Of a DNA stretch of 59,347 nucleotides, positions 50,897-55,150 are shown piece after piece. The stretch is from Candidatus Woesearchaeota archaeon. GTDB lineage: Archaea > Nanobdellota > Nanobdellia > Woesearchaeales > GW2011-AR4. The DNA is taken from NCBI GenBank assembly GCA_018303655.1, contig JAGVXT010000028.1, forward strand, positions 1 to 59,347, given 5' to 3'. The position numbers were made by a program, and so were the translations under genes. Each line of letters begins with the position of its first letter. Position 1 is the first letter of the stretch. Under the pieces are notes generated by a model. The model was not told where the DNA came from. It saw only the letters and a program-made list of their open reading frames with translations, and made no database searches.

Positions 50897-52438
50897 ATGC
50901 AGGGTGAAGCAAATCATAATTGTGCCATAGCTGCCGTTTACATCAAGGAAAACGGCGACTCAGCAAACAGGGCGCTGTTTTACCTCTACAAACTCCTTCT
51001 CAACCAGCAAAACCGAGGCCAGTTAAGCGCTGGCGTAACAACCTTTAATCCTTCCCGAATGCAGATCCTTGACACATACAAAGAGCTTGGACCTGTAAAC
51101 GAGGTTTTCAAGACAAGCGACAAGCAGCAGTCTTTAGAGCTCTTTAAGAGGTATTCAGGCAACAAGGGCATTGGGCATGTAAGGTATGCAACATCAGGAA
51201 GCGAGGAAAGGAGTTTAGCTCAACCATTTGAAAGGCATCATGGAAGAAAATGGAAATGGTTTTCATTCTGCTGGAACGGCAACCTTGCGAACTACCATGA
51301 GCTTAAGCAGCATTTGATGGAGAAAGCAGATTATCATATAATTTACAACACAGACACAGAGATTTTAATGCATTACATCTCAAGAGAGCTGAGGGGCTCA
51401 AAAAAACCCAATCTTGTCAAGGTTTTTGGAAGGCTGGCGCAGAAAATTGACGGCTGCTTCAACATCGCTTTTATGAATGCCTTTGGCGAGATGATAATTT
51501 TGCGGGATCCTTACGGATTCCGACCGATTGTATATGGATGGAAAGATGAAATGTTCCTTGCTGCTTCTGAAAGCAATGCATTGATTAATTGCGGTGTAAC
51601 GGATTACAAGCATTTGCCTCCAGGCCATTTGATTTATGTGAAAAACGGCAATGTCGAAGTCAAGAAATATGCTGAAAGCCCGAGAAAAGCGCATTGCATG
51701 TTTGAATGGGTTTATTTTGCAAATGTAAGCTCTGTTTTGGATAATCAATCTGTTTATATAACAAGAACAAACCTTGGGAAAGAGCTTGCAAGGCAAGAAA
51801 CAGAAAAAATTGACAAGGATTATGTTGTTGTTCCGGTGCCTGATACTGCAAAGGCGGCAGGGGATGCAATGGCTTATGAACTTAAAGTTCCGTCAGCAGA
51901 GGGCTTGATAAGGAACAGGTTTGTAGGAAGAACATTCATTGAAGGCTCATCCAGAGAAGACAGGGTGCAAAACAAGTACACTGCATTAAAAGAGATACTG
52001 CAAAACAAGAAAGTGCTTCTGGTTGATGACAGCATTGTAAGGGGCTCAACCACAAAGCAGCTTATCAATTATATTAAAAAAGTCGGCGGGGCAAAGGAAG
52101 TTCATGTCCGTGTTTCATGCCCGCCTATAAGAGGGCCCTGCTTTTACGGCATTGACATGTCAACTGTGGCTGAATTATTGATTCCAAGGTATGAAGGAGA
52201 GCCAAGAAAGGGCGAAGCTTCAAAAGAAGTTGTTGCCAAAATAGCAAAGGACTTGGGAGCTGATTCTTTAAGGTACCAAAGCATGCAGGGGCTTGTGAGA
52301 AGCATTAGCAAGCCTGCAAAGGATTTGTGCATGGCATGCTTAACCGGAGATTATCCAACGCCGCATGGCAAGAAATTGTACCAGAAAGCCTGGGAAAACT
52401 TCAGAAAGGGAGTCAAGGACAGGACTTATACGTGTTGA
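50897..52438 (+). CDS. purF: amidophosphoribosyltransferase
   Basis: First committed purine step: PRPP plus glutamine gives phosphoribosylamine. 513 residues. Cys9 in HNCAIAAVY would be the N-terminal nucleophile after removal of an eight-residue propeptide. NQQNRGQLSAGV and GHVRYATSGS belong to the glutaminase, LLVDDSIVRGSTTKQLI is the PRPP loop, and the C-terminal CMACLTGDYP Cys pair resembles the Fe-S ligands of Bacillus-type PurF. In place of the usual Cys-Gly start the sequence is Cys-Ala. The last codons and stop lie inside a target-site duplication. Confidence 0.94.
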   Translation: MQGEANHNCAIAAVYIKENGDSANRALFYLYKLLLNQQNRGQLSAGVTTFNPSRMQILDTYKELGPVNEVFKTSDKQQSLELFKRYSGNKGIGHVRYATSGSEERSLAQPFERHHGRKWKWFSFCWNGNLANYHELKQHLMEKADYHIIYNTDTEILMHYISRELRGSKKPNLVKVFGRLAQKIDGCFNIAFMNAFGEMIILRDPYGFRPIVYGWKDEMFLAASESNALINCGVTDYKHLPPGHLIYVKNGNVEVKKYAESPRKAHCMFEWVYFANVSSVLDNQSVYITRTNLGKELARQETEKIDKDYVVVPVPDTAKAAGDAMAYELKVPSAEGLIRNRFVGRTFIEGSSREDRVQNKYTALKEILQNKKVLLVDDSIVRGSTTKQLINYIKKVGGAKEVHVRVSCPPIRGPCFYGIDMSTVAELLIPRYEGEPRKGEASKEVVAKIAKDLGADSLRYQSMQGLVRSISKPAKDLCMACLTGDYPTPHGKKLYQKAWENFRKGVKDRTYTC

Positions 52439-52570
52439 GGTTCTGGTGCATTAACGTTTGATAGGTAAAGATGGTGCGGATTGTTTGATAAGATGATAAT
52501 GAGCACTGGACATTCACACATAAGGTTTATAAACTAGAAAACTTTATATATTTAAGAATTATTGCAATAG

Positions 52571-52840
52571 GTGATTAAAATAGCAAAAGTTGACAATTTT
52601 AGTGAGTTCGATAGATTAAAAGAAGATGAAAAGAAAGTTTTACTAAAAGCATTAGGTTATGATATAAACGAGAGGGGTTTTGTAGTTGAAGAACATACTC
52701 AAAATATTGTTTGGTGCAGATACACTAATAAACCTGTGAAATTTGATGAAGCTTCAATTTTACCTGGTTCTACCATCATTATAAACACTACACCTGTTTC
52801 TTTATCAAGTTATATTGAAGAATTTCTAGAAGATGAGTGA
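52571..52840 (+). CDS. unknown protein of the purF-adjacent element, 89 residues
   Basis: GTG start with no better ATG; a TATA-like CTTTATATATTTAAG lies near 52542-52556. Acidic start (VDNFSEFDRLKEDEKKVLLK), then a beta-rich part (RGFVVEEHTQNIVWCRYTNK; ILPGSTIIINTTPVSL). The LPGS(T)xxI string and single Cys are not diagnostic. Overlaps the next gene by 8 bp, so the two act together. Confidence 0.6.
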   Translation: MIKIAKVDNFSEFDRLKEDEKKVLLKALGYDINERGFVVEEHTQNIVWCRYTNKPVKFDEASILPGSTIIINTTPVSLSSYIEEFLEDE

Positions 52841-53579
52841 TGACAAACCTAACATAAATGAAGTCCTTGCACGAGCTAGTTTAATTAAGTTTGAAGAGCT
52901 ATCAAAAGCAGTTCTTGATAACATTAGAGATATATGGTTAAAAGCCAAAACACGAAGTGGTTTTACGCCGACTCCTGAAGAAGCAGAGAGATTAAAGAGG
53001 ATAGCTAAAAATATAACTTATCAATCATTTAAATCTTGTGTTGGTTCAACACCTTATCTCCGATTTATTAAAGTAGGATTAATGCTTTATGAATTAATGA
53101 CCGAGGGCAACCTAGACAGGATTAAAGAGATTAAAGATGAAATATATAATAGTAAATATAATATAACCGCTTTAAAAATAATACACATTGCATCAACTGG
53201 TGTTTTGTTAAATACATTAGAATATTTAATTAATCTAAGAGACGAAAGACAATTATCTAAATATGCAGTTTCTCTAGAATTTGAAAAGATTCTTGTTTTG
53301 TGGAATAATATAGCAATTCCTGTACAAAAAGATGATGACTGGGAAAAAATAATTGAAGTAATAAAATCAAAAGTTATGAATAATTCACCTTTGATTGTGT
53401 TGTATGCTTCACAATCTGCTGTTAAAGTAGCACATTCAGTGGTAGTAGAAGTAGGTAAGCAAAATTTATGCCAGAATAAATATTTTCCTTGGTCAAAAAA
53501 CCTAATTTATAAATCTCTTGAACAATATATATGCATATTCTACAAAATTGATGGAGACTGGGAAACTCCCTTTGGATAA
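52833..53579 (+). CDS. unknown helical protein of the purF-adjacent element, 248 residues
   Basis: Mostly alpha-helical, Lys/Glu/Ile-rich, with no signal, membrane helix or recognised catalytic motif. Segments: EELSKAVLDNIRDIWLKAKT, TPTPEEAERLKRIAKNITYQ, and a beta-like SPLIVLYASQSAVKVAHSVV. AT-richer than purF and guaA around it. A small-plus-large overlapping pair on a mobile element recalls toxin-antitoxin or defence cargo, but nothing in the sequence proves that. Confidence 0.65.
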   Translation: MSDDKPNINEVLARASLIKFEELSKAVLDNIRDIWLKAKTRSGFTPTPEEAERLKRIAKNITYQSFKSCVGSTPYLRFIKVGLMLYELMTEGNLDRIKEIKDEIYNSKYNITALKIIHIASTGVLLNTLEYLINLRDERQLSKYAVSLEFEKILVLWNNIAIPVQKDDDWEKIIEVIKSKVMNNSPLIVLYASQSAVKVAHSVVVEVGKQNLCQNKYFPWSKNLIYKSLEQYICIFYKIDGDWETPFG

Positions 53580-53809
53580 TTGGTAAAAATCAATTTATGC
53601 TTCTAAATAGATTTTTATTATTCCAATAACTGCAAACAATTCATTCCTATTCCTAGCCATTTTAGCCAGAAATAGGTCAAATCAAATGATTACGCACCAG
53701 AACCAAAGTAATTTATGAAAACAAAAACCACACCGCACCATTTTGCTGATTTTAGGGCAGAACAACCTTTAACGCACCACTACCCGTGTTGATATGGTAT
53801 TTAAATCTG

Positions 53810-54130
53810 TTAATGCATAACTCCAATTGCCCAGTAATCTTCTTCATGCCGAATAATTCCGTATCTTCCGCCATCATAACCCCTTAGAATTTGGTCCAAA
53901 CATCTGGCGTGCTGCTCACTTGTAGAATCTGATGATATAAGAATCCCATTAACAGCAAAAACCGGATTATCTTTTAACTGCATTAGGTACATGGCGGCTT
54001 CCTTTATTGTAGCTCTGTCGGGTTTACAATCATGACTTTTACTTGGGTTTAAGGGGATTGATTTTGCGCAACCATATCCCATGCCAACTGTAACAGCTAA
54101 AACTAAAGCTCTAATTGCTTTTGATCTCAT
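53810..54130 (-). CDS. small secreted or lipoprotein-like protein
   Basis: 106 residues. N-terminal hydrophobic segment ALVLAVTVGMGYGC with a weak lipobox (GYGC), then KSIPLNPSKSHDCKPDRATI and a domain with three Cys (EQHARCLDQILRGYDGGRYG). Function unknown. Lies between the purF-adjacent element and the IS. Confidence 0.6.
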   Translation of the reverse strand: MRSKAIRALVLAVTVGMGYGCAKSIPLNPSKSHDCKPDRATIKEAAMYLMQLKDNPVFAVNGILISSDSTSEQHARCLDQILRGYDGGRYGIIRHEEDYWAIGVMH

Positions 54131-54148: not shown

Positions 54149-55150
54149 GACATTGTTTAATTAACGTCATCTTTATATAGTGGCTATTTCTTAAGAGTCT
54201 TGGTGATGTTTTATGCAGCTAAAATGCCCCAAATGCGGCTCTAAAGACATTTCAAGAAAAGGATTTAGGAAAAATAGTTCCGGAAAGAAACAAAAATTCA
54301 GATGCTATGAATGTAAGAAATGGTTTGTCAAAGATGAAGGCTTTAACAGAATGAGATTTAATCCATCTGTGATAGTTCGTGCAGTTCACATGCACGAAGA
54401 TGGAATGTCATTAAGCAAAGTTCAAAATCATCTTTGGCAGCATGATAAAGTAAAAGTAACAAGAGGGGCAATTAGCCTATGGATAAAAAAATATTCTATT
54501 TTTTTAAAATCCCATTCATTTAAACTCAAAGCCAGAAATTAAAGGAAGAGTTCATTATGATGAAAAATACGTCAAGGTAAAGAAAGAAGATTGTTATGAC
54601 TTAAATGCCGTAGACAGCAAAACAAAATATGTTTTGGCTCATCTTTTCGTCGAGAAAAGAACGATTAAGAAATGCGCAGAATTCCTCAATCAAATAAAAA
54701 TTACATGCTACGGGCAGATATTGGAAAAATACAACCAAGAAAAAGTTAAACCAACAAACAAAAGAAAATTAATAATATTTGTATGTGATAAGTTTGAAAA
54801 TTATAGAACTGCATTCAATAAGCTTTTTTATAGAGTTGCTGAATTGAGATTTGGCGTTCCAATCAAAGCAAAGAGAAATGGGCTAAAGCATAACAATAAC
54901 CACATAGAAAGGTACAACCAAGACATAAAAGACAGAATAAAAATAATGAGAAATTTTGGGAGTAATAATGGCGCAAAAGGTTTTTTGAATTTAAAGCACA
55001 TAATTCATAATTTTGTGAACCCTCACATGCAGCTAAAGGGGATTACGCCTGCTGAAGCAGCAGGAATTAACTTAAAGTTGGGCAGAAGAAAGTTGTTAAA
55101 TCTTATAAAGTATAGGGCAAAGACAAAGATGACGATAAGATGACAATGTC
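54149..55150 (+). mobile_element. IS6-like insertion sequence
   Basis: 1002 bp. Ends are inverted repeats of 25 bp: left GACATTGT-N8-CGTCATCTT (54149-54173), right the reverse of the same (55126-55150), with both blocks identical and the 8-nt spacer diverged. Immediately outside is a 9-bp direct repeat GTTATATAT (54140-54148 and 55151-55159), the target-site duplication. It carries one transposase gene. Confidence 0.88.
54213..55143 (+). pseudogene. IS6/IS240-type DDE transposase, frameshifted
   Basis: First part (54213-54542): zinc ribbon CPKCGSKDISRKGF...CYECKKWF and a helix-turn-helix (MSLSKVQNHLWQHDK). Second part, one base out of frame: PEIKGRVHYDEKYVKVK (first Asp), VCDKFENYRTAFNKLF (second Asp) and NNHIERYNQDIKDRIKIMRN (Glu), then ITPAEAAGI. 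The shift lies between 54504 and 54542, next to homopolymer runs. The frames could be joined by programmed +1 frameshifting, but no clear slippery site is seen; recent decay or a sequence error is simpler. Confidence 0.8.

Follow-up and report, generated by a model that had tools for sequence, protein, structure and literature searches.

A probable IS6-like mobile insertion cassette without a transposase carries an A-B gene pair at the 3' end of purF in a woesearchaeal genome

We analyzed a 59,347-nt stretch of DNA (the window) from a Candidatus Woesearchaeota archaeon with a 1.26-Mb, 88% complete assembly. At the 3' end of purF, it very probably contains a mobile insertion cassette that lacks a transposase and belongs to an IS6-like transposon family of archaea, with two genes, A and B, as cargo. 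The nature of the element as a cassette is strongly supported. Its features are as follows.

52431..52438, no strand: left target-duplication copy CGTGTTGA, exact repeat, containing the purF stop codon
52439..53784, no strand: mobile insertion cassette, 1,346 bp, without a transposase gene or detectable remnant
52439..52460, plus strand: left outer end site GGTTCTGGTGCATTAACGTTTG, TGGTGC-type motif at 52444
52472..52491, plus strand: left inner site TGGTGCGGATTGTTTGATAA, 33 bp from the tip (12/17 match, shuffle tail 0.02)
52540..52553, plus strand: likely archaeal TATA box in the CTTTATATAT region, inside the cassette, as judged from its letters
52571..52840, plus strand: gene A, 89 aa, conserved small partner protein with the SILPGSTIIINTTPVSLSSYI motif region
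52833..53579, plus strand: gene B, 248 aa, helical N-terminal domain (about 1-155) and predicted C-terminal Alba-fold domain (about 160-240)
53680..53704, minus strand: right third site GGTTCTGGTGCGTAATCATTTGATT, 85 bp from the tip
53721..53740, minus strand: right inner site TGGTGCGGTGTGGTTTTTGT, 44 bp from the tip
53763..53784, minus strand: right outer end site GGTAGTGGTGCGTTAAAGGTTG
53785..53792, no strand: right target-duplication copy CGTGTTGA, exact repeat

The inverted ends GGTTCTGGTGCATTAACG and GGTAGTGGTGCGTTAAAG match at 14 of 18 positions. When the same geometry was slid along the window as a chance control, none of 367 placements reached 14/18 together with an exact 8-bp repeat; the best score, 11/18, occurred six times, and the other 361 placements gave no match at all. 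These ends, the direct repeat and the TGGTGC-type sites (two left, three right) had been proposed in a preliminary description of the sequence and were borne out. The same holds for its proposal that the insertion spared purF. The purF stop (TGT TGA) falls inside the left CGTGTTGA copy, and relatives without the insert conserve the same purF end, ...TATGCGTGTTGA, or a sequence close to it. The cassette inserted across the stop codon and left the purF protein unchanged. Under the single-copy reading, the sequence before insertion would have been purF-CGTGTTGA-TATGGTATTTAAATC, i.e., ...ACGTGTTGATATGGTATTTAAATC. Neither an A-B module beside purF nor an empty purF site was found in relatives, and the flank beyond the cassette had no match within the genus. 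At 30.5% GC versus a window mean of 38.5% (SD 2.6), the cassette is about the lowest stretch in the window.

The spacing of the end sites recurs. Of 19 family ends, 18 have an inner TGGTGCGTTATGGTTGG-type site whose distance from the tip is either 32-33 or 43-44 bp, and of the seven elements for which both ends could be seen, five combine a short with a long end; since the site consensus was drawn partly from these same ends, the agreement in site sequence is partly circular, the spacing is not. The layout resembles that of paired transposase sites about one helical turn apart, a mechanistic interpretation that we infer from the sequences. IS6 terminal repeats begin with GG and have a G as their seventh base (PMC6807381). 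The tips of the window cassette, GGTTCTG and GGTAGTG, follow this rule, and the ends of the G004 element listed below start with GA.

As proposed in the preliminary description, related genomes were searched for the ends, using GGTNNTGGTGCRTTAA in the genus and GGTTCTGGTGCRTWA in the family and order (353 genomes). Both patterns matched further genomes, and the reversed control of GGTTCTGGTGCRTWA gave zero matches in the 353 genomes. The further members have other contents. Full-length members were found by pairing ends with flanking 8-mers. Four members found by this pairing have exact 8-bp duplications (that in the window and those in G018, G010 and G221). Besides the window cassette, the members with exact duplications are as follows.

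G018: 1,479 bp, duplication GAAAATAA
G010: 1,960 bp, duplication GCAAATGA
G221: 2,693 bp, duplication TGAAACGG, encodes a transposase
G214: 4,930 bp, ends GGTTGTGTTGC.../GGTTGTGTTGC..., 8-bp duplication TGCTTTGC, encodes a transposase
G004: 3,452 bp, ends GATTCTGTTGC.../GATAGTGTTGC..., 8-bp duplication TTGTGCAA, encodes a transposase

In the G013 member, the duplication is imperfect (TAAAATCA/TAAATCAA), and G015, G002, G219 and G033 yielded single ends accompanied by inner sites. For the G010 element, an exact empty site is present in the sister species G004, where ...AATAGGGCAAATGA is joined to AAAATTTTATAAACC with a single GCAAATGA copy and flanks that are 95% identical. The empty site thus defines where elements of the family begin and end and how long their duplication is. 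Single end matches in L089, L091, L094-L096, L078 and L080 had no partner or inner site and were judged to be chance. The end pattern was not found in viral contigs. Three members (L100 7970, L099 8374 and L097 8853) sit a few bases upstream of the next gene's TTTATAAA or TTTATATT-like boxes, perhaps reflecting an insertion-site preference near archaeal promoters.

Restriction-modification genes accompany three other members, plus one uncertain case. The G013 member carries a type II methylase and a restriction enzyme; the autonomous G214 element, with its exact 8-bp duplication, contains an 825-aa type IIG/I restriction-modification enzyme (L214 1035-3512); and in G219 a methylase fragment adjoins an end. 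In G033, a type IIG enzyme lies about 1 kb from the one visible end. The right ends of the G033 and G002 members were sought and not found, so their cargo assignment is uncertain; this also applies to a G002 protein in which we read an RN(x)4H HEPN-like motif and which had no library match. The G018 cargo comprises a 238-aa protein, in our reading with a nuclease-like motif, and a 150-aa protein that matches a candidate-defence model and looks Panacea-like. HTH and DUF3467 proteins make up the G010 cargo, and that of the G004 element appears to us to consist of membrane-type proteins.

Genes A and B of the window cassette overlap by 8 bp, their lengths and overlap being as first described, and the operon probably has its own promoter, judging from the candidate TATA box. 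At E<=0.001, a profile of B matched 13 of 353 genomes. The pair is present in 12 of the 353 genomes, and in each of the 12 readable loci A lies directly upstream of B. The 11 A-B loci outside the window all lack flanking cassette ends; thus, the pair is cargo. The neighbors of these loci are mixed, including restriction-modification, SLFN-type helicase, AAA and integrase genes as well as core genes. The B gene is apparently frameshifted or broken in G033 (L013 1343-1480) and G108 (L165).

Profile searches and structure prediction, also suggested at the outset, modified the initial view that neither protein has a known domain. The predicted structure of B (pLDDT 82) has a helical N terminus and a C-terminal beta-alpha-beta-alpha-beta-beta domain, for which nearly all top Foldseek matches belong to the Alba superfamily (probability 1.00, E from 6.7e-3, TM on target <=0.78). 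The C-terminal domain is therefore predicted to have Alba topology and to bind nucleic acids. Sequence searches with the C terminus yielded no significant Alba match, the N-terminal domain has no known relatives, and no nuclease or recombinase signature was found in B. A HEPN motif considered in B was rejected because it is not conserved in the alignment. For A, the initial view stood: it is predicted to be a small alpha/beta protein (AF2 pLDDT 82.6) in which GS is invariant and the preceding P nearly so, and it had no fold or sequence match. Comparison of A-B with PADLOC gave no match, searches for B relatives in genome contigs and with the B alignment in viral contigs confirmed nothing, and B was not found in phages and plasmids.

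We tentatively regard A-B as most likely a compact defense or toxin-antitoxin-like pair, by analogy with the other members, which carry restriction-modification and other defense-type genes. Like toxin-antitoxin and defense systems, A-B is an adjacent pair of a small and a large gene with a patchy distribution. It is also conceivable, with a somewhat lower probability, that A-B is a housekeeping or regulatory pair, e.g., related to chromatin or RNA, since chromatin proteins of archaea and RNase P/MRP proteins are typical Alba-fold proteins and several A-B loci adjoin core genes. However, such a role fits less well with so patchy an occurrence, with the low GC content and mobile setting in the window, and with the small A gene being always present, as in toxin-antitoxin-like pairs.

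The transposases of the G221, G214 and G004 members are 387-394 aa long. That of G221 (394 aa) combines a SWIM motif and a Zn ribbon with an IS6-type DDE domain; it scored 61 bits against the Pfam model DDE_Tnp_IS240 (cutoff 27) and 118.6 bits against the NCBIfam IS6 model (cutoff 125). The G214 and G004 proteins are 67% and 58% identical to it, and a 75% relative is encoded in G343, where one end is visible. The preliminary description had called the window element unclassified; its ends and 8-bp duplication place it in this IS6-like family. We write IS6-like rather than IS6 because the authors of PMC6807381 argue that the archaeal IS6 members deserve a separate family. No transposase trace was detected inside the window cassette, in agreement with the first description. 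The G010 cassette retains a 50-residue C-terminal remnant of the transposase (74% identity), which shows that a transposase-bearing ancestor has decayed there. Very weak C-terminal transposase traces may also be present in the regions of G013 (E 0.13) and G015 (E 0.22). A cassette and a close intact transposase were never found together in one genome; in the window's own 88% complete assembly, the closest transposase is about 25% identical and has different ends. More distant transposases (25-35%) are associated with other end families, which also have passengers.

Mobilization of the window cassette in trans is likely. An IS6-type DDE transposase with SWIM and Zn-ribbon motifs would be supplied from another copy, bind at least two TGGTGC-type sites per end and insert the unit, leaving the 8-bp duplication. 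The unit would have landed across the purF stop codon with the A-B operon aboard as cargo, in which A is the constant small partner of B, a putative helical protein whose Alba-type domain would bind nucleic acids. Alternatively, the cassette may be a dead deletion derivative, a fossil neither maintained nor moved in trans, with cargo trapped by chance. This is rather unlikely. The G010 remnant, the single copy per genome and the lack of a partner transposase in the window's own assembly would fit such a fossil, but the two ends, the inner sites and the duplication have all remained intact, and multi-gene cargo that is likewise intact, and different in each, is found in at least three cassettes. 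In addition, the exact duplications show that the units inserted as transposons, although the transposase could have been lost afterward.

Of the three roles initially considered for the two genes, cargo of a non-autonomous element is thus the one supported. The first of them, a new transposition system that would make the element autonomous, is very improbable: there are no other genes between the ends and B has a predicted nucleic-acid-binding Alba domain, but the pair occurs in 11 places without these ends and duplications, elements with the same ends lack A-B, the DDE transposase sits inside such elements, and B has no nuclease or recombinase signature. That the repeats are fortuitous and A and B two ordinary genes after purF can practically be dismissed, since, although the inverted ends are imperfect, no control placement matched them, elements with exact duplications recur in other genomes and an empty site is known for the G010 member.

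Mobile insertion cassettes (mic elements) have IS-type inverted ends and a target duplication around passenger genes and lack a transposase (PMC3913671). According to the same paper, the IS231A transposase mobilizes MIC231A1 in trans. Like MIC231 of Bacillus cereus and the qnrD mic elements, the window cassette has inverted IS-type ends around its passengers, an 8-bp CGTGTTGA duplication and no transposase; autonomous relatives with the same ends exist (G221, G214 and G004), none of them in the window's own assembly. Unlike these mic elements, the family has IS6-like instead of IS231-type ends, an archaeal host, two to three sites per end and a cargo that varies by member and includes restriction-modification genes. 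Thus, IS6-like ends, a multi-site architecture and a defense-rich cargo are new with respect to known mic elements.

IS6 family elements are about 0.8 kb long and generate 8-bp duplications; for the family as a whole, one passenger-carrying member (ISDsp3) and two MITEs are listed (PMC7986276). The elements described here share with the IS6 family (IS26, IS257 and archaeal clades) the 8-bp duplications, the GG start with G at position 7 and the IS6-type DDE domain. In contrast to IS6, their transposase has 387-394 aa with SWIM and Zn ribbon versus 213-254 aa, it scores under the NCBIfam IS6 cutoff, and the elements are 1.3-4.9 kb long with passengers and duplicated end sites. The strict IS6/IS26 format, a short element measuring about 0.8 kb whose single transposase has 213-254 aa, does not describe them. 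The predicted fold of the C-terminal 80 or so residues of B, and the fold only, is like that of the Alba superfamily (Sso10b, Rpp20/Rpp25 and SpoVS), from which B differs in the fusion to a helical domain of about 150 aa and in its constant pairing with A.

In DPANN archaea, restriction-modification and CRISPR-Cas systems are reported to be under-represented and compact systems to be favored (PMC12988326). The window cassette looks like a borrowed vehicle that moves small, probably defensive, gene modules between tiny archaea. Its recognizable ends provide both this vehicle and a search tag, GGTWSTGGTGCRTTAAMGKTTG, for finding defense cargo in small symbiont-like genomes; IS6-like transposition is extended to passenger-carrying, multi-site elements, and A-B represents an uncharacterized family with a nucleic-acid-binding prediction. 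A broader and more speculative proposal, which we consider doubtful as a whole, is a Woesearchaeales family of defense cassettes. Its IS6-like transposase would act on paired end sites (short, 32-33 bp, plus long, 43-44 bp, per element) and move transposase-less cassettes that swap small defense modules, A-B being a new Alba-fold immune or toxin-antitoxin system.

Just past the right repeat, a 106-aa ORF (53810-54130) has a lipoprotein-like N terminus (GYGCAKS); it matched nothing in the library, and no relative turned up in the genus. About 360 bp downstream of the cassette lies a separate IS6-like insertion sequence (54149-55150) with the inverted repeat GACATTGTTTAATTAACGTCATCT and GTTATATAT repeats on both flanks, its transposase being split into frames of 109 and 169 aa. 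It is probably not the source of the cassette, because its ends differ. Other Woesearchaeales IS6-like elements of 2.2-3.2 kb with exact 8-bp duplications also carry passengers, some of them surface- or secreted-looking (L217 1241-4463; L137 4872-7449; L143 2824-5302; L144 2989-5273; L146 3576-6054). Passenger-carrying IS6-like elements seem to be common in this order.
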